NCBI GenBank assembly: GCA_018384835.1 | Contig: JAHAYB010000482.1 | Coordinates: 1-6,537 of the forward strand | Length of the DNA stretch: 6,537 nucleotides | Direction: 5' to 3' | Origin: Comamonas sp. | Lineage (GTDB): Bacteria; Pseudomonadota; Gammaproteobacteria; Burkholderiales; Burkholderiaceae_C | Shown: positions 1 through 6,537 of the stretch, piece by piece | Layout: every line of letters begins with the position of its first letter | Position numbering within the stretch: the stretch's first letter is position 1 | Program-made: the position numbers and the translations under genes | Notes under the pieces: model-generated | The model's database searches: none | What the model saw: only the letters and a program-made list of their open reading frames with translations | Told to the model about the DNA's origin: nothing

Positions 1-2081
1 AGGCCGGTGTGGCGGCCAAAAATAGTCACGCCAAAGCGCTCGGCCAGGGCTTCTAGGCGGTGGGAGTCTTGGTGGGGGTGGGCCACAGCAGACAGCAGCA
101 GGGTATCCAGCACGGGCTGGCGGAACTCTACGCCGGTGCGCTTTTCCAGCAGTTGTAGAAACTTCATATCAAACGCGGCGTTGTGGGCGACCAGCACGCT
201 GTCTTGCGCGAAGCGGTGGAACTGGGGCAGCACGGCCTCAATGCGCGGCTGGTTGGCCACCATATCGGGGGTGATGCCGTGGATGGGGATGCCGGCCTCG
301 GGAATATCGCGCCCAGGGTGAATCAGTTGGTCAAAACTCTCTTGCGCCAGCAGGCGGGCGTTGACGATGCGCACCGCGCCAATCTGGATGATTTGGTCGC
401 CCTGCGAGGGGTTGAGGCCGGTGGTTTCCGTATCAAACACGGTGTAGCGCAGGCTGGAGAGGGGGCGGTCGTCCAAATCGCTATCTGGCTCCTGGTGCTG
501 GAACAGGTCAAAGTCGTAGAACTCGGGGCGGCTGTCGATAGGGGTGCTGCCCAGGTGCAGGGCGGGGGCGCTGGGGCTGGCTGCCGTGTTGGTGGCTGTG
601 TTGGGAGTGCTCTGGTTTGGGGTGGTTTGGTTTGGAGTGGTTTGGGCATGACCCAGCGGCAGCAGAAAGCGCAGAAAACCGGTGTGGCTGGCACGGTCGC
701 GCTCAAACCATAGTTCGCCATCGTGGCGGGTAACGATGTCGCGCACCGTCAAGGTGCTGCGCTCGCCGCTGATTTCTAGGTTGTCCATCTCCCAGCTCAT
801 CACGGTTTCGGTGCTCATGGCCTGGCCGCTCCACACCAGGTCCAGGTGGGCGCGTTGGCCGTCTGCCGCTTGTAGGCGCAGGTGCAGTTGGGGCACATCG
901 TACTCCTGCACTAAGCGCTGCCCCAGGTAGGCCAGGGCTTGCAGCAGGGAGTAACCATCCACCCGCAGCCATAAATCAGGGGTGCAGGCTTGGTGCTGTA
1001 CGGGGCGTTGGAGCTGGCTGTGCAAATGGTGCTGGGCGGCGGTTAAAAAGTCTTCGCCCTGCATGTCTTCCAGCGGCCAGCGGGTGTTGACTTCCTGGGC
1101 GGCGCGTTGCGCTAGGGTGTCGATGCGCTCGCCCATGCGGGTGGTTTCTTCCTGCACCACATCTAAAAAGCGCTGGCGCATGGCGGCGGGGATGTCGTCA
1201 TAGCCCAGCATTTCCACAGCGGCGCGGATGGCAGCCAGGCTGGCGCGGTTGCCCTCGGTCAGGCTGTGCAGCAGGTGGTCGCGCTCGGCCTCTTGGGCAA
1301 AGCTGTGGGTGACATCATCGAGCAGCAGCACAAAGCCGGTCATGCTGGGGGCGGCGGCGTGGGAGAGCACCGGACTCATCTGCACCCGCAGCAGTTGCTG
1401 CGCCTGGGTGTGGGTGATGAAGTGGCTGGCCGGGTTGGCCGCGCCGCGCTCTACCTGTTGCGCCACACGTTGCAGGGCGTGTTCTACCAGTTGGCGCTCT
1501 AGCAGCCCTTCAATGCTGCGGCCTATGCCGATGCTGGCTCCCTGCTGGGGCTTGCCTAGTTGCTGCTGGGCGAGTTGGTTGTAGAGCAGGATGCGCCCTT
1601 CCAGATTGCACACCAGCACGCATTGCGGCAGTTCGGCCAGCAGGGCGGCCAGGCGCTCTTTTTCCTGTTGCAGGCGGCCACTGGTTTGGCGCACTTGCTC
1701 ATCCATGTCGTTGCGCAGGCTATCGCGCTGGGCAATGAGGTCGGCAATGGCTTGGTGCAGGGGGTGGGCTGGGGCGTAGCTGTTGGCCGGAAAGGTTTTG
1801 CCACGATGGCTGATAGCCACGCGGGTGTGCTCTGCCAACTGCGCCAAGCTGTGCTGTGCGGGTTGCACCCAGCGGCGCCACACGGCCAGCAAGCCTGCGC
1901 TGCCTAGCACCCAGGCCAGTACCAGCAGGGGGCTAACGCTAGCGAGCATTTGCTGCCATTGCTCACGCAAAGCAGGGGGCAAGGCTAAAGCAGCCAGCCC
2001 CAGGGTGATAAGCAGCCATAGCCCCAGCCCCAGGGCGGCAACTGTGGCAGCTAGTAATAATTGGCGTTGGGCGCGTTGCAT
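1..2081 (-). CDS. Membrane-anchored PAS / pseudo-histidine-kinase / DnaQ-type 3'-5' exonuclease fusion (C-terminus cut by window edge)
   Basis: The frame is open from ATG at 2081 to the left edge (693 codons, no stop). Hydrophobic segments lie at about residues 8-34 and 51-68, then a HAMP/coiled-coil-like stretch (70-150) and a PAS-like region (about 147-262). Residues 270-332 resemble a HisKA dimerisation helix and 365-477 an HATPase fold, but the catalytic residues are lost: E276 sits at the phospho-acceptor position, and the N, G1 and G2 boxes are not conserved. A Pro/Thr/Asn-rich linker (478-545) leads to a DEDDh exonuclease: FDTETTGLN with D550 and E552, NAAFD with D638, and GRHT with H691 as likely general base. 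The last metal-binding Asp should lie just beyond the edge. A GAAGGG ribosome site sits 8 nt before the start, 17 nt after the receiver gene. The family hydrolyses nucleic acid 3' ends. It is likely to be annotated as a polymerase III epsilon subunit, but the membrane and sensor parts argue against a replicative role. The role is unknown. Confidence 0.88.
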   Translation of the reverse strand, partial: MQRAQRQLLLAATVAALGLGLWLLITLGLAALALPPALREQWQQMLASVSPLLVLAWVLGSAGLLAVWRRWVQPAQHSLAQLAEHTRVAISHRGKTFPANSYAPAHPLHQAIADLIAQRDSLRNDMDEQVRQTSGRLQQEKERLAALLAELPQCVLVCNLEGRILLYNQLAQQQLGKPQQGASIGIGRSIEGLLERQLVEHALQRVAQQVERGAANPASHFITHTQAQQLLRVQMSPVLSHAAAPSMTGFVLLLDDVTHSFAQEAERDHLLHSLTEGNRASLAAIRAAVEMLGYDDIPAAMRQRFLDVVQEETTRMGERIDTLAQRAAQEVNTRWPLEDMQGEDFLTAAQHHLHSQLQRPVQHQACTPDLWLRVDGYSLLQALAYLGQRLVQEYDVPQLHLRLQAADGQRAHLDLVWSGQAMSTETVMSWEMDNLEISGERSTLTVRDIVTRHDGELWFERDRASHTGFLRFLLPLGHAQTTPNQTTPNQSTPNTATNTAASPSAPALHLGSTPIDSRPEFYDFDLFQHQEPDSDLDDRPLSSLRYTVFDTETTGLNPSQGDQIIQIGAVRIVNARLLAQESFDQLIHPGRDIPEAGIPIHGITPDMVANQPRIEAVLPQFHRFAQDSVLVAHNAAFDMKFLQLLEKRTGVEFRQPVLDTLLLSAVAHPHQDSHRLEALAERFGVTIFGRHTG
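600..644 (-). repeat. 15-bp imperfect tandem repeat encoding a QTTPN-type linker
   Basis: Three adjacent 15-bp units (600-614, 615-629, 630-644) lie inside the exonuclease-fusion gene. The two units at 615-644 differ at one base, and the third is more diverged. On the coding strand they give TTPNQ/TTPNQ/STPN at about residues 481-494, a flexible linker between the degenerate kinase core and the exonuclease domain. The plus strand here is rich in GG runs. Because the unit is 15 bp, copy-number change would keep the frame and only alter linker length. Confidence 0.75.
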
Positions 2082-2089
2082 AGCTAGTG

Positions 2090-2095
2090 CCCTTC
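2090..2095 (-). promoter_or_regulatory. Ribosome binding site of the exonuclease-fusion gene
   Basis: GAAGGG on the minus strand lies 8 nt before the ATG at 2081, in the 17-nt gap after the receiver stop. It supports this start, which leaves the first membrane helix complete. Confidence 0.65.
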
Positions 2096-2098
2096 GCT

Positions 2099-2488
2099 TT
2101 AGGCGGGTGCGCCGGTGGTGGCTTGCAGCATTTGCGCAATTTGCGCGGCCAAATCGCGGGTAGAAAAGGGCTTGGTGGTGTAGGCATCTGCGCCTAAGGC
2201 CGTGCCCTTGGCCAGGTCAGCGGCGCGGCCTTTGGCGGTCAGCATGATGATGCGCACGTTCTGCAAATCAGGCTCGGCGCGCACGGCTTGGCAGACTTCA
2301 AAGCCGCTGAGGTGGGGCATCATCACATCCAGCAGCACCAAGTCGGGGCGATGGCTGCGGATGCTGTTGAGCGCTTCTTGGCCGTCACGTGCTACCAGCA
2401 CGTCATAGCCTTCGCGTTGCAGTAAAAATTCCAGCGAGATGACGATGTTTGGCTCGTCATCTGCAATCAAAATAGTTTTTTTAGTCAT
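2099..2488 (-). CDS. Stand-alone CheY-like response regulator (receiver domain only)
   Basis: This 129-aa protein is a single receiver domain with no DNA-binding or enzymatic output. It has the acidic pair D10/D11, phospho-acceptor D54 in the LLDVMMP motif, T84 in the IMLTAKG motif and K106 in the TTKPF motif, so it should accept a phosphoryl group and switch. Length is typical for a one-domain receiver. The frame extends upstream to an ATG at 2545, but the start at 2488 is preferred: AGGAG lies 7 nt before it, and the protein then begins MTKKTILIADDE, the usual receiver start. The start overlaps the last 8 bp of the kinase gene, so translation is probably coupled and the kinase is the obvious cognate donor. 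With no output domain it must act by binding another protein. The exonuclease fusion 17 nt downstream is the nearest candidate (inference). Confidence 0.93.
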   Translation of the reverse strand: MTKKTILIADDEPNIVISLEFLLQREGYDVLVARDGQEALNSIRSHRPDLVLLDVMMPHLSGFEVCQAVRAEPDLQNVRIIMLTAKGRAADLAKGTALGADAYTTKPFSTRDLAAQIAQMLQATTGAPA

Positions 2489-5246
2489 GGCTTGTCTCCT
2501 CTTGGGCTGTGGTGGGTGCAGGGCGGCGCGGCAGGCTAAAGCCAAAGCAAGCGCCCGCCCCTGGTTGGGAGTTTATCCACATCTGCCCGCCCAAATGTTC
2601 GACGATTTGGCGGCAAATGGGCAGCCCCAAGCCCGTGCCCTGGGGGCGGTCGCGGGCATCGCCGAGTTGGCGGAATTTATCAAAGGCGCGGGCTTGCTCC
2701 TCAGTGCTAAGGCCGGGGCCGTTGTCTTGCACGGTGATATGCACTTCATGCCCCAAGTCTTGCAAGCGCATCTGCACCTGCCCCCGCCCGCGTGGGGAAA
2801 ACTTGGCCGCGTTAGACAGCAAGTTCAGCAGTACCTGCTGGATGCGGTCGGGGTCAGCCCATAACGGGGCTAACGGGGCGCTGGGCGTGGCATCAACTTC
2901 CAAGGTGCAGCCCGCGTTGCGAAACAGCTCGGCAGTGGTGGCGGCGGCTTGGTGCAGCAGGGCGCTGATATCGACCTCGGTGTTATGCCATTCGGCGTGG
3001 CCAGATTCGATTTTGGCCAAGTCCAGCACTTGGTTGACCAGGCGCGACAGGCGCTCGCTTTCCTGCGCAATGATGCCGACGAACTGCTGGTGCTGCTCAG
3101 GGGGCATGTCGGGGCTATCCAGCATCAGCTCGGCCAGGGCGCGGATGGAGGTCAGCGGCGTGCGCAGCTCGTGGGTGACGGAGGACATAAAGTCATCCTT
3201 CATGCGGTCCAGGCTTTGCAGTTGGGCGTTGGCCTCGCGCAGTTGGGCGGTGGCTTCCTCCAGGGATTGGGATTTTTCCTCTAAGGCGCGGGAGTAGGCG
3301 CGTAGCTGCGAGGCTTCTTCCAGCATTTTGAGCACATCGGTGGTGGTCAGCGCCTCTTCCTTGGCAATCGAGGCCACCAGCAGCCGCGCTGATGCCCCGC
3401 CCACCGCCCCTGCCAGCTTGGTTTCGATATGGCTGACAAAACCGGCATCGGCCAGGCTGGGCAGCTCCCCGCCGTGGCGCTGGCGGTAGCGCGAGAAGAT
3501 GTCGGCGCTGCGCTCATCGCCTAAAAAGCGCTGGCAGAGCTGGTAGAGGTCTTGCACCCGCGCCTCACCGCGCCAAAACACTGGCTGCCGCCCCGCGCTG
3601 GCGCGGACAAACATCAGCGCTTGGCTGGTCTCGCGTGCCTGGGGCGCTCGCCATAGCGACAGCAGCACGTAGGCAGCGGTATTGGCCAGCAAGCTCCAGA
3701 ACAGGGAGTGGCTCAGGGCATCCAACCCCGTCAGGCCAAACAAGGCTTCGGGGCGCAGCCAGGCCATGCCCGCAGGCCCTTGGGTGACAAAGCTGGCATC
3801 CAGCCCCGGCACCGCCCCCGACTGGGCCAAAGAGGGCAGCATCAGCGTATAAACCCAAATCGCAAAGCCCAGCAGCAAGCCGCCCAAAGCGCCCAAGCGC
3901 GTACCTTGCGGCCAATACATGCCCAGCAGGGCGGCGGGGGCAAACTGCGCCACAGCGGCAAAGCTGACCAGGCCAATGCTGACCAGGGCGTAAGCCTCGC
4001 CCACGATGTGAAAGTAGGCATAGCCCAGCAGCAGCAGGCAAAAAATAGTGGCGCGGCGAATGTTCAGCACGATGCGGCTAATGGCCGGGCTGCCCTGCAC
4101 CGCCCCCCAGCGCAGCAGCAGGGGCAGCACCAACTCGTTGCTGACCATGGTGGCGACGGCAATGCTCTCCACAATCACCATGCTGGTTGCAGCAGACAGG
4201 CCGCCAATAAACACCAGCAGCGCCAGCGCCGATTGCCCCTGCGCCAGTGGTAGCGACAGCACAAAGCTATCGGGGTTCATCTCTGCCCCAGCACCCGCCC
4301 CCAGGCCGTCAAAGTACAGCAAGCCGCCCAAAGCAATGGGCAACACAAAGATATTGATGGCTAGTAAATAGGCCGGAAACACCCACACCGCCCGGCGCAG
4401 ATGGCGCTCGTGGACGTTTTCTACCACCATGATTTGGAACTGGCGCGGCAGCATCACCATCGCCAGCATGGCCAGCACAATCATGCTGAACCAGTGCGGC
4501 CAGGCAAAGGCCATGCCTTGCTCTAACCGCAGCAGGGGCTGTAAATCGGCACGCGCCATGGCTTGGCTAAAAATATCGCCAAAGCCTGTAAATAGGCCGT
4601 AGGTAACGAATAGCCCCACCGCTAAAAATGCCAGCAGCTTGACCAAAGATTCAAAGGCAATCGCCGCCACCATGCCTTCGTGGCGGGCGGTAGTGTCTAG
4701 GTGGCGCGTACCAAACACCATGGTGAAACCCGCCAGCAGCAAGGCCAGGTAGAACGTGCCGTCGCGGCTCCAGTGGCTGGCTCCGCTGGCCTGATGCCCC
4801 AGGGGATGAGTGAGCAGCCCATAAGCCTCAGACACGGCCTTGAGCTGCAAGGCGATATAGGGCAGCACACCCACAATGGCAATCAGAGTGACGCACACCG
4901 CCAGCAAGCGGCTTTTGCCGTAGCGGCTGGCGATAAAGTCGGCAATCGAGGTAATGCGCTGCGCCTTGGCAATGCGCACCATCTTGCGCAGCACCACCCA
5001 GCCCAAAATCATGGCCAGTGTCGGCCCTAAATAGGTGGGCAGAAACCACAGCCCACGGCTAGCCGCCTGCCCCACGCTGCCAAAGTACGTCCAGGCCGTG
5101 CAATACACCCCTAAAGACAGGGCATACACCCAGGCGTTGTTGATGAGTGATTGCCCTCGCGCAGCACGCTGGTCACCCCAATAGGCCACGACAAACAGCA
5201 GCCCCAGATAGGCCAAAGAGATACCGACCACCAGCACGGCATTCAT
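2481..5246 (-). CDS. SSF transporter-domain sensor histidine kinase (CbrA-like, SLC5-STAC-HisKA-HATPase)
   Basis: This is a 921-aa fusion. Residues 1 to about 510 form an SSF/SLC5-type sodium:solute symporter domain with roughly a dozen hydrophobic helices, including the family-typical ITSIADFIASRYGKS stretch near 98-112. A STAC-like linker follows (about 545-640), then a coiled coil (about 649-685). The kinase core is intact: H692 in THELRTPL, N-box N808/N812 (NLLSNAAKF), G1 box D841 (DNGPGLS) and G2 box G870-G874 (GTGLGL). It should autophosphorylate H692 and pass the phosphate to D54 of the overlapping receiver. CbrA proteins usually carry a PAS domain before the kinase; I see none here. 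The substrate is unknown; whether the SSF part transports or only senses cannot be read from sequence. The start at 5246 has AGGAG 8 nt upstream and overlaps the stop of the preceding gene (ATGA), implying coupled translation. Confidence 0.93.
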   Translation of the reverse strand: MNAVLVVGISLAYLGLLFVVAYWGDQRAARGQSLINNAWVYALSLGVYCTAWTYFGSVGQAASRGLWFLPTYLGPTLAMILGWVVLRKMVRIAKAQRITSIADFIASRYGKSRLLAVCVTLIAIVGVLPYIALQLKAVSEAYGLLTHPLGHQASGASHWSRDGTFYLALLLAGFTMVFGTRHLDTTARHEGMVAAIAFESLVKLLAFLAVGLFVTYGLFTGFGDIFSQAMARADLQPLLRLEQGMAFAWPHWFSMIVLAMLAMVMLPRQFQIMVVENVHERHLRRAVWVFPAYLLAINIFVLPIALGGLLYFDGLGAGAGAEMNPDSFVLSLPLAQGQSALALLVFIGGLSAATSMVIVESIAVATMVSNELVLPLLLRWGAVQGSPAISRIVLNIRRATIFCLLLLGYAYFHIVGEAYALVSIGLVSFAAVAQFAPAALLGMYWPQGTRLGALGGLLLGFAIWVYTLMLPSLAQSGAVPGLDASFVTQGPAGMAWLRPEALFGLTGLDALSHSLFWSLLANTAAYVLLSLWRAPQARETSQALMFVRASAGRQPVFWRGEARVQDLYQLCQRFLGDERSADIFSRYRQRHGGELPSLADAGFVSHIETKLAGAVGGASARLLVASIAKEEALTTTDVLKMLEEASQLRAYSRALEEKSQSLEEATAQLREANAQLQSLDRMKDDFMSSVTHELRTPLTSIRALAELMLDSPDMPPEQHQQFVGIIAQESERLSRLVNQVLDLAKIESGHAEWHNTEVDISALLHQAAATTAELFRNAGCTLEVDATPSAPLAPLWADPDRIQQVLLNLLSNAAKFSPRGRGQVQMRLQDLGHEVHITVQDNGPGLSTEEQARAFDKFRQLGDARDRPQGTGLGLPICRQIVEHLGGQMWINSQPGAGACFGFSLPRRPAPTTAQEETSHD
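2496..2500 (-). promoter_or_regulatory. Ribosome binding site deciding the receiver start
   Basis: AGGAG on the minus strand lies inside the final codons of the kinase gene, 7 nt before the ATG at 2488. It favours that start over the upstream in-frame ATG at 2545. Confidence 0.7.
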
Positions 5247-5560
5247 GGCTGCGGCTCCTGGGGCAGGGATTGAGTGGTGGGACTGGCCTTTTTCACCGGG
5301 TCGATGGCGTAGGGCATGGCATCGGCGGCTGGCTCGGCAGGGGGGGTATCTTCATCGGCACTGCCGCGCTCCATCAGCCAGGCCAGCACCAGTATCAACA
5401 GCAGCCAGATGGCGTAGGCGGCAGTTGGCAGCAGCGGCCAGCCCCCTATCAGCACCGGGCGGTCCCAAATGCTAAATAGGGGAAAGCTCAACAACAGCCA
5501 GCCCAATACAAACAGGGCAAGCAGTTTTTCAGTGCGTTGGTTGCGGCGGCTGGTGGGCAT
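5243..5560 (-). CDS. Small two-helix membrane protein, possible accessory subunit of the transporter-kinase
   Basis: The protein has 105 aa and no family I can name with certainty. A basic N-terminus (MPTSRRNQR) precedes hydrophobic helices at about 12-31 and 43-63, with a short FSIWDRPVLIGGWP loop between them. A hydrophilic tail follows (64-105), rich in Pro, Ala and acidic residues. The basic N-terminus suggests both ends are cytoplasmic. Small two-helix proteins of this general layout (DUF3311- or DUF4212-like) are often encoded beside SSF transporters, and the gene is coupled to the transporter-kinase by a 4-bp ATGA overlap, so a partner or stabilising subunit is plausible. No strong Shine-Dalgarno precedes the ATG at 5560; the gap from the upstream gene is only 15 nt, so it may rely on reinitiation. 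The coding call rests on operon position and the clean hydrophobic pattern. Confidence 0.8.
   Translation of the reverse strand: MPTSRRNQRTEKLLALFVLGWLLLSFPLFSIWDRPVLIGGWPLLPTAAYAIWLLLILVLAWLMERGSADEDTPPAEPAADAMPYAIDPVKKASPTTQSLPQEPQP
5255..5259 (-). promoter_or_regulatory. Ribosome binding site of the transporter-kinase gene
   Basis: AGGAG on the minus strand lies in the end of the 105-aa gene, 8 nt before the ATG at 5246. Together with the ATGA overlap it supports this start. Confidence 0.65.
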
Positions 5561-5575: not shown

Positions 5576-6103
5576 TCAAAAGCACAGCTTGGCAAGCAGC
5601 GGGTCGGCGGCGGCCAAAGCCTGGGTATGCGGCTGGGTGGAGACTTTGCCATTGCTCAGGCCGCTGCTTTGTATCGGCCCCATCACCACGCCCTCTTGCA
5701 GGCGGCAGTTGAGCACATGCTGATAGACCTGCATCCGCTCTGTGGGGTCTTTGAAGAAGCGGTATTCCTTGTATTCCACAATACGCGCCCCGTCTTGGGT
5801 TTGGATATTGGCCTGGCCATCAAAAACGCTGAACTGGCTGACTGCCGGGGCAATATAGCTCCAGGGTTTGAAGAAGTCTTTTTGACGCTGCTCGGCATAA
5901 ATAAAGCTGTCGGCAGGTAACTGGCTTTTCTTAAAGTCAAACCACTGGTAATCGTAATAGGCCAAATAGATAAACATGCCAGCGGCTGCAAATATAGGAA
6001 TGAGCCACTTGGGTAGGCGGCCTTTACTCAGTCTGCGCAATAGATAGGCAAAAGCGCCACTGCACAGGCCAATGATGAATACGCCCAGTAAATTCCAAAT
6101 CAT
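5576..6103 (-). CDS. Hypothetical membrane-anchored protein with extracytoplasmic domain
   Basis: This 175-aa protein is one I do not recognise. Helix 1 spans about 3-22, followed by a strongly basic loop (RRLSKGRLPK, about 23-32) and helix 2 at about 33-50. The basic loop should be cytoplasmic, which places the soluble part (51-175) outside the inner membrane. That domain is aromatic-rich (DYQWFDFKK, FFKPWSYIAP) and has two cysteines, C133 and C174, that could form a disulfide. The start at 6103 has AGGGAGA 7 nt upstream. It is the first gene after the symporter terminator and so probably the first gene of the five-gene unit leading to the sensor kinase. A role in presenting or sensing a solute for the kinase is conceivable, but only context suggests it. 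Confidence 0.82.
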   Translation of the reverse strand: MIWNLLGVFIIGLCSGAFAYLLRRLSKGRLPKWLIPIFAAAGMFIYLAYYDYQWFDFKKSQLPADSFIYAEQRQKDFFKPWSYIAPAVSQFSVFDGQANIQTQDGARIVEYKEYRFFKDPTERMQVYQHVLNCRLQEGVVMGPIQSSGLSNGKVSTQPHTQALAAADPLLAKLCF

Positions 6104-6207: not shown

Positions 6208-6537
6208 TTATGGGTAGCGCACGCGGCGTACCATTTCCTGGATTTCCTCGCTAGGCTCTTCGCTGGCCAGGGAAACACCCATCGCTACGATGAAGTTCGT
6301 CAGAGCGCCGATGCAACCAATCGACAGGGGCGAGATACCCATAATCCAGTGCTCAGGCGTATTCGGGAAGTTGTTGGTGCCAGGGATAAAGAACCAACCC
6401 AGGTACATAAAGATGTAGCCAATGGTTAGCACCGCACCGGCAATCATGCCTGCAACAGCGCCCTTGTTGTTGATGCGCTTAACGAAGATGCCCATTATCA
6501 GTGCCGGGAACAGGGTGGCCGCCGCCATGCCAAAGGC
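6208..6537 (-). CDS. Sodium/solute (acetate-type) symporter, C-terminal fragment
   Basis: The frame is open to the right edge and its 5' part lies outside the window. The visible 109 residues contain the stretch AFGMAAATLFPALIMGIFVKR followed by NNKGAVAGMIAG, typical of late transmembrane helices of the SSF family, in the branch of ActP-like and VC_2705-type cation/acetate symporters. A further hydrophobic helix precedes an NFPNTPEHW loop, and a last helix (about 82-98) ends in an acidic/basic tail, EEIQEMVRRVRYP. The family couples sodium entry to uptake of small monocarboxylates across the inner membrane; the substrate cannot be fixed from this fragment. The stop at 6208-6210 is followed by a stem-loop terminator. 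The truncation comes from the window edge, not from a visible mutation. Confidence 0.88.
   Translation of the reverse strand, partial: AFGMAAATLFPALIMGIFVKRINNKGAVAGMIAGAVLTIGYIFMYLGWFFIPGTNNFPNTPEHWIMGISPLSIGCIGALTNFIVAMGVSLASEEPSEEIQEMVRRVRYP

Follow-up and report, generated by a model that had tools for sequence, protein, structure and literature searches.

A stand-alone receiver that may dock on the His-less kinase core of a membrane exonuclease beside an SLC5-type histidine kinase

In a 6,537-nucleotide (nt) stretch of Comamonas sp. DNA (hereafter the window), a histidine kinase fused to an SLC5-type transporter domain, a receiver that has no output domain, and a predicted membrane exonuclease whose kinase-like core lacks the phospho-acceptor His are encoded consecutively. 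Across relatives of this exonuclease, the His-less DHp domain, alone of the four domains tested (DHp, PAS, CA-like, and nuclease), loses constraint where the kinase and the receiver are absent, and we consider this result decisive. We evaluated an earlier proposal, from a first-pass annotation of this DNA, that the three proteins form a signaling chain in which the receiver docks on the nuclease. Overall, that interpretation is partly supported, and the comparison of genomes lends strong, if indirect, support to its docking claim. On balance, we lean toward a reading in which the receiver would dock on the His-less core and the kinase would have the nuclease as a direct output that bypasses transcription.

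Constraint on the DHp domain and presence of its partners

Constraint was estimated on a tree built without DHp columns, with branch lengths fitted per domain on the fixed topology, and the loss label was taken from genome searches for kinase and receiver, i.e., independently of the state of the DHp domain (one locus, L215, lies in a genome that is 74% complete). For 183 exonuclease rows, including 28 loss rows, the DHp branch length relative to the rest of the protein was 3.04 over 41 loss branches versus 0.94 over the 315 others. The corresponding ratios for loss and other branches were 1.31 and 1.24 for PAS, 1.16 and 1.08 for the CA-like domain, and 0.60 and 0.73 for the nuclease. An earlier 81-row set, aligned with another MAFFT mode and requiring at least 7 changes of the loss label on its tree, yielded DHp ratios of 4.27 for loss versus 1.38 for other branches, with similar PAS, CA-like, and nuclease ratios. 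Clade by clade, the 11 loss clades that retain the DHp domain displayed ratios of 1.67–8.00, compared to a median of 0.87 (quartiles 0.57–1.22, maximum 2.45) for 55 non-loss terminal branches, and all 11 testable clades exceeded their sisters (FastTree topology, midpoint root, p = 0.001). Second exonuclease copies in genomes holding the receiver elsewhere stay constrained (1.27 for L274, 1.18 for L288).

A twelfth loss clade, formed by two species of one genus (g246; loci L249 and L250, genomes G611 and G805), retains 117/117 PAS and 144/144 CA-like columns and 1/65 DHp columns. The deletion is in frame, so that the end of the PAS domain runs straight into the start of the CA-like domain. Neither kinase nor receiver was found in these two genomes, which are 99–100% complete, and a congener with both genes (L248, G747) displays 65/65 DHp columns. 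The exonuclease itself is retained in genomes without both partners, and thus presumably also has a receiver-independent role.

Next, we evaluated which DHp positions change. Positions were transferred to the exonuclease using what we take to be His243 of EnvZ, His260 of HK853, and the HK853 DHp sequence, and the placement of V308 and E311 on helix 2 is likewise our assumption. The docking set, i.e., eight exonuclease columns, combines the coevolving EnvZ helix-1 positions as given in excerpts of Capra et al. 2010 (PMC2991266) with the HK853 rewiring positions from the title of PDB entry 4jau. These eight columns lose 0.52 conservation in the loss group versus 0.26 for all 66 columns (permutation p = 0.0006), and the least-changed conserved columns form the hydrophobic core of the bundle (+6, +9, +13, +16, +40, and +44).

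The arrangement of the genes was examined in three locus samples, drawn by exonuclease similarity (n = 80), family-wide (n = 88), and order-wide (n = 25), with 8 exonuclease sequences common to more than one sample. Kinase, receiver, and exonuclease lie on one strand in 50/80, 68/88, and 18/25 loci, respectively, the commonest arrangement in all three, which bears out the earlier expectation of a conserved gene order. Two loci scored as having none of the partners because of a missing nuclease end (L264 and L285) do hold both genes. At other loci, a symporter directly precedes the exonuclease, or the exonuclease lies near a DUF294/CBS/cNMP-type protein. One protein cluster recurs near the exonuclease in many loci (L009, L034, L042, L049, and others), and its one Pfam-checked member has cNMP, CBS, and DUF294 matches. 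The exonuclease was found in records labeled beta- and gammaproteobacteria as well as in two labeled Rhodobacteraceae/Paracoccus. In three genomes, two of them labeled Competibacter (L097–L099), a second, diverged exonuclease (26–28% identical in its N-terminal part) lies directly before a p4-kinase pair (p4 being the small protein listed in Table 1), with a receiver upstream of that exonuclease.

Among 399 genomes of the order sample, 27 encode the exonuclease, 50 the kinase, and 24 both, and the DHp domain is decayed in all three genomes with exonuclease and no kinase (G048, G178, and G298). We further searched 28 (of 30) genomes without both partners at the exonuclease locus (set A): the kinase was present in 12, a receiver ortholog (E < 1e-40) in the same 12, and neither in 16, one of which holds a receiver paralog (44% identical, 1.7e-26). 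For 24 additional genomes, two of them repeating set A, 15 had neither gene, 3 both, 4 the kinase only, and 2 the receiver only; in many genomes the first kinase search scored at most 32–37 candidates. The exonuclease loci of the four kinase-only genomes (L188, L213, L246, and L293) each start at the end of a contig. As for the two receiver-only cases, no kinase was found for L247, whose genome is 82% complete, and L190 (6007–8666, 3-contig assembly) was rejected as an example of a receiver kept without kinase, its receiver being diverged (52%) with Gln for Lys105. With the kinase not found and the exonuclease DHp still intact, L190 looks like a loss that is recent and still under way. Finally, four Rhodocyclales genomes encode two receivers, one in the kinase–receiver–exonuclease arrangement and one in a separate receiver–exonuclease pair without kinase nearby, and these second receivers retain D9, D10, D53, K105, and the helix-1 face.

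Sequence features of the three proteins

The first-pass annotation had described an active kinase, an output-less receiver, and a nuclease with a non-catalytic kinase core encoded one after the other, and domain matches, motif conservation, and gene spacing all agree with this description. The kinase matches HisKA (1.4e-20) and HATPase_c (1.6e-29) in Pfam, without a Response_reg match. Its His692 column holds H, the +1 column E, and the +4 column T, each in 139/139 rows, and its H, N, G1, and G2 boxes are conserved across aligned rows. Judged from these motifs (His, acid at +1, N and G boxes), it looks complete as an active HisKA histidine kinase. Residues 7–491 match PDB entry 10ed (E 1.5e-70), which we take to be CbrA, while Pfam SSF gave no match at E 0.05; in having an SLC5 transporter domain fused to the kinase, the protein agrees with SLC5/STAC kinases.

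Response_reg is the sole domain of the receiver, with nothing C-terminal of the match. The gene runs from an ATG at 2488 to 2099, and searches used 2485..2099. Residues D9, D10, D53, and K105 are invariant in 133/133 trios, and the Asp at nt 2327–2329 (D53 in alignment numbering) is the expected phosphorylation site. The docking helix is nearly invariant (0.92–0.99 identity at positions 13, 14, 17, 18, and 21), so that little receiver-side covariation is possible there. Five other positions (24, 25, 66, 87, and 89, at the end of helix 1 and in helices 3 and 4) are conserved when the exonuclease is present and changed when it is absent, and may be regarded as candidate exonuclease-specific contacts.

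The exonuclease matches RNase_T (1.2e-32) and PAS (7.7e-05), with a HisKA match below the Pfam cut-off (E 0.009, residues 282–323). Since the window is an entire contig (C69, from an assembly of 526 contigs), the protein is cut after residue 693, before its last metal-binding Asp. Relatives are mostly 700–740 residues long, and one full-length relative 90% identical to the window protein (P0002) provided the AlphaFold model (predicted confidence, pLDDT, 86). Foldseek matches of this model included DivL (4q20) and HK853-RR468 complexes. VIA-align on the whole model returned exonuclease folds only, and was thus uninformative on the kinase-like part that Foldseek matched. The aligned rows carry the Asp-x-Glu, Asp, and His-x4-Asp signature of DEDDh exonucleases: D550, E552, and D638 are kept in 183/186 rows (3 gaps), H691 in 183/186, and the H-x4-D string occurs in 180/193 exonuclease open reading frames (ORFs). 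Before the nuclease domain and after a low-confidence stretch lies a linker peptide, RPEFYDFDLF, with 8/10 positions invariant in 55 aligned sequences and the exact string in 86/193 exonuclease ORFs. The exact string also occurs in 17/28 rows without receiver; the peptide is perhaps an internal latch.

The kinase-like core of the exonuclease lacks the hallmarks of an active HisKA enzyme. Among 145 rows with a receiver at the locus (window included), the His position is occupied by Glu in 137 (E276 in the window), Gln in 4, Asp in 2, Ala in 2, and His in none. The +1 residue is acidic in 0/145 and Gly in 114/145, +4 is Ala, Ser, or Gly and not Thr in 141/145, and R279, three residues past the His position, is present in 145/145. 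One loss row (L266) has His in this column, within an eroded segment. No HATPase match was obtained for the core in Pfam, and ATP-binding boxes are not recognizable in its CA-like domain. In HisKA enzymes, the acid at +1 has a kinase role and the Thr at +4 a phosphatase role. By these rules, the exonuclease core could neither autophosphorylate nor dephosphorylate the receiver and, lacking the His, the +1 acid, and the +4 Thr, could only read it.

A putative route from solute to nuclease and its alternatives

In the proposed mechanism, the SLC5-type domain would sense a solute, probably a small organic acid, as suggested by the neighboring symporter and by the CrbS/CbrA relatives. The kinase, whose motifs are observed, would then phosphorylate or dephosphorylate the receiver at its conserved Asp, and the receiver would dock on the Glu276 face of the exonuclease DHp, as the region- and position-specific constraint suggests. 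Docking would be passed on through the PAS/DHp/CA-like core, then through the linker, and reach the DEDDh domain, changing its activity; because the DHp core is fused to the nuclease, docking may control it. For the complete chain, in which a solute-sensing transporter-kinase phosphorylates a lone receiver that plugs into a repurposed kinase core and switches a membrane exonuclease on or off, we see the balance as even. Its physiological setting is probably the use of small organic acids, given the symporter neighbor, the SLC5 kinase kin, and the pyruvate phenotype of a Pseudomonas exonuclease deletion (PP_0353, see below).

Several observations weigh against docking of the receiver on the exonuclease. 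Kinase and receiver are nearly always lost jointly, so that presence and absence do not assign the constraint to the receiver alone. Four of the 11 loss clades (1.67, 1.72, 1.95, and 2.07) fall within the range of non-loss single branches (maximum 2.45), 8 of the 11 sister groups consist of one row each, and overlap is possible between two of the larger ones. One locus labeled as a loss in the 81-row set (L086) displayed no acceleration (1.11); its contig starts inside the exonuclease and it was later set aside. Glu276 is still present in 5/28 loss rows. Of the ten DHp columns with the strongest erosion, five lie outside the docking set, in the helix loop and the start of helix 2 (+18, +21, +26, +28, and +29), and the decrease is just 0.19–0.34 in three of the eight docking columns. 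Covariation, the residue-level signature anticipated for docking, was uninformative: mutual information with average product correction over 133 trios (effective number 49) gave no DHp–receiver interface signal, top scores for the nuclease domain, a negative control, were as high as for the DHp domain, and the kinase–receiver positive control missed the known interface. No receiver–exonuclease fusion was seen in the frames examined, nor any Response_reg among the Pfam matches of 120 listed homologs. Two candidate fusions were rejected: a 1014-residue frame proved to be off-frame sequence running into the receiver from upstream, and the locus of an 825-residue frame gave no frame holding both.

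In addition, the kinase and receiver occur without the nuclease, leaving room for pairing of the receiver with a distant output protein. The exonuclease was absent at E ≤ 1e-70 from 26 of the 50 kinase-bearing order-sample genomes. Of 20 regions from 19 of these 26 genomes, 15 hold kinase and receiver without exonuclease (one of them, L341, ending just past the receiver), 1 a diverged exonuclease (L353), and 4 no adjacent receiver. An opposite-strand receiver-domain gene lies within 5 kb in 10 of the 15 pairs (L336–L350, L354); by Pfam, the opposite-strand neighbor is OmpR-type in L336 and a same-strand neighbor is LuxR-type in L343. These neighboring response regulators are a possible alternative target of the receiver. 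Since such pairs exist, the receiver has a role beyond the exonuclease, which in certain lineages appears to be an extra output. The ratio of receiver to kinase evolution was 2.49 without versus 0.99 with the exonuclease, suggestive of a reciprocal constraint on the receiver, even though the receiver evolved faster without exonuclease in just 5/7 sister comparisons.

Three other explanations were weighed against these data. The exonuclease core may work upstream, holding the receiver or the kinase and tuning their signaling, with the nuclease as an anchored passenger or otherwise regulated. DivL offers a precedent, being described in excerpts of PMC4211667 as a pseudokinase that acts on another kinase pathway; moreover, the exonuclease carries its own PAS domain, the kinase–receiver pair occurs near other response regulators, and the nuclease survives partner loss. 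However, the protein joins this dead core to a nuclease domain whose metal site is conserved, and partner loss decays the DHp domain only and not the PAS or CA-like parts, so we consider an upstream role rather unlikely. Alternatively, the DHp domain could bind the kinase instead of the receiver, e.g., in a mixed dimer or a helix-bundle contact with the SLC5 kinase. Given the joint loss of the two partners, loss of the kinase explains the decay about equally well by presence and absence. Yet bundle-forming helix-core positions are kept while receiver-facing positions decay, and the second receiver–exonuclease pairs sit apart from any kinase gene, which makes kinase binding quite improbable.

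The genes may also be merely co-regulated in an operon for carbon-source use, the receiver having its target elsewhere (e.g., in a DNA-binding regulator, or in the kinase) and the DHp decay resulting from other lineage changes. Consistent with this are the receiver-domain genes opposite most exonuclease-free pairs and, as stated in excerpts of PMC9927547, a Pseudomonas exonuclease gene whose transcription the related MxtR/ErdR system controls. But decay is limited to one of four domains, is found in every testable loss clade relative to its sister, is enriched at docking positions, and reaches a precise in-frame DHp deletion; co-regulation alone thus strikes us as very improbable. As regards docking of the receiver on the exonuclease, the DHp-specific loss of constraint, the enrichment at docking positions, and the kinase-free receiver–exonuclease pairs all argue for it.

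Many bacterial receivers lack both an output domain and a known target, and the comparative data presented here indicate a target and a surface for one of them, namely the dead kinase core that a nuclease carries. If docking occurs as proposed, a nuclease would be under the direct control of a carbon-source kinase, with no transcriptional step in between, and the exonuclease would be a DivL-type reader with its own catalytic effector, giving one group of orphan receivers a role. Looking for regions that lose constraint once their partners are gone would then offer a general route to the docking sites of orphan receivers.

Related systems, window layout, and neighboring genes

The exonuclease core resembles DivL of Caulobacter, the partner of DivK, in combining a His-less DHp with a CA-like domain and PAS, and in its association with a receiver without output domain. 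Both have an Arg three residues past the His position (R553 in DivL, R279 here), and in the excerpted DivL work the R553A substitution disrupts DivK binding (PMC4211667). According to the same excerpts, DivL reads phosphorylated DivK through its His-less DHp, and species without DivK are frequently without the DivL DHp-CA region (PMC4211667); likewise, in the absence of the receiver the exonuclease DHp has decayed or is gone. With a His-less DHp fold and a single-domain receiver as partner, the latter assigned by neighborhood and joint loss, the exonuclease would classify as a DivL-like reader. It does not classify as a DivL ortholog, having Glu in 137/145 rows and Ala in 2 for the Tyr of DivL (Ala in one published case), with Tyr in 0/145. 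It further differs in being fused to a DEDDh exonuclease, and the DivL partners CckA and CtrA were not seen in its neighborhood.

Like CrbS (MxtR), CbrA, and RpuS, the window kinase joins an SLC5-like transporter to a histidine kinase, and a VC_2705-type symporter adjoins. It differs in that its adjacent partner is a receiver without DNA-binding domain, while the cognate regulator in CrbS/CrbR (MxtR/ErdR) is a LuxR-type DNA-binding protein, a comparison that concerns the locus only. In Pseudomonas putida, PP_0353 is a putative exonuclease of the MxtR/ErdR regulon, and deleting it compromised growth on pyruvate, according to excerpts of PMC9927547. It is thus another RNase_T exonuclease associated with a kinase system of the SLC5/STAC type (compared by RNase_T), and it adjoins a CBS protein gene (PP_0354; PMC9927547, excerpts), as the exonuclease here lies near a cNMP/CBS/DUF294 cluster. 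There, however, the link to the kinase is transcriptional, and a kinase-like core is not mentioned in the excerpts (PMC9927547). Compared to other DEDDh exonucleases (DNA polymerase III epsilon/PolC type, DinG), the window protein adds predicted membrane helices, PAS, and the His-less kinase core. Open-licence literature was searched for kinase-like cores in exonucleases and for an exonuclease linked to CrbS/CrbR or PP_0353/PA3232; among the matches listed, PMC9927547 and the DivL paper were the only relevant ones.

All genes of the window lie on the - strand (Table 1). Kinase and receiver ORFs overlap by 8 nt, and a gap of 17 nt separates receiver and exonuclease.

Table 1 Features of the window and the evidence for each
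Feature	Position (nt)	Strand	Evidence and remarks
SLC5-type transporter/histidine kinase, 921 residues	2481..5246	-	Transporter part about 7-491, HisKA 682-749, HATPase 798-908
Kinase His692 codon, phospho-acceptor position	3171..3173	-	H in 139/139 aligned kinase rows
Stand-alone receiver, 129 residues, without output domain	2099..2488	-	Pfam Response_reg 3.6e-29
Predicted membrane exonuclease with His-less kinase core, first 693 residues	3..2081	-	Cut by contig end
Exonuclease N-terminal predicted membrane helices, about residues 1-75	1857..2081	-	Model helices 2-33, 36-91; hydrophobic sequence
Exonuclease PAS domain, residues 142-258	1308..1658	-	Pfam PAS 7.7e-05; model strands between 154 and 256
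Exonuclease His-less DHp (HisKA-like two-helix bundle), residues 266-330, proposed receiver-docking site	1092..1286	-	Model helices 258-292, 299-334
Exonuclease Glu276 replacing the phospho-acceptor His	1254..1256	-	Row alignment
Exonuclease CA-like domain, residues 335-478	648..1079	-	Sequence; model fold 338-476; no recognizable ATP-binding boxes
Exonuclease linker peptide RPEFYDFDLF, residues 518-527, before nuclease domain	501..530	-	Conservation
DEDDh exonuclease domain, residues 545-693	3..449	-	
p4, 105-residue membrane-type protein	5243..5560	-	Overlaps kinase start by 4 nt; often upstream of kinase
VC_2705-family (TIGR03648) sodium/solute symporter gene, 3' end	6208..6537	-	Profile match 1.4e-33

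Relatives of the symporter recur upstream of the exonuclease in many loci, and relatives of the 105-residue protein recur upstream of the kinase. This protein and a second small protein encoded at 5576–6103 (-) matched no Pfam family above cut-off.

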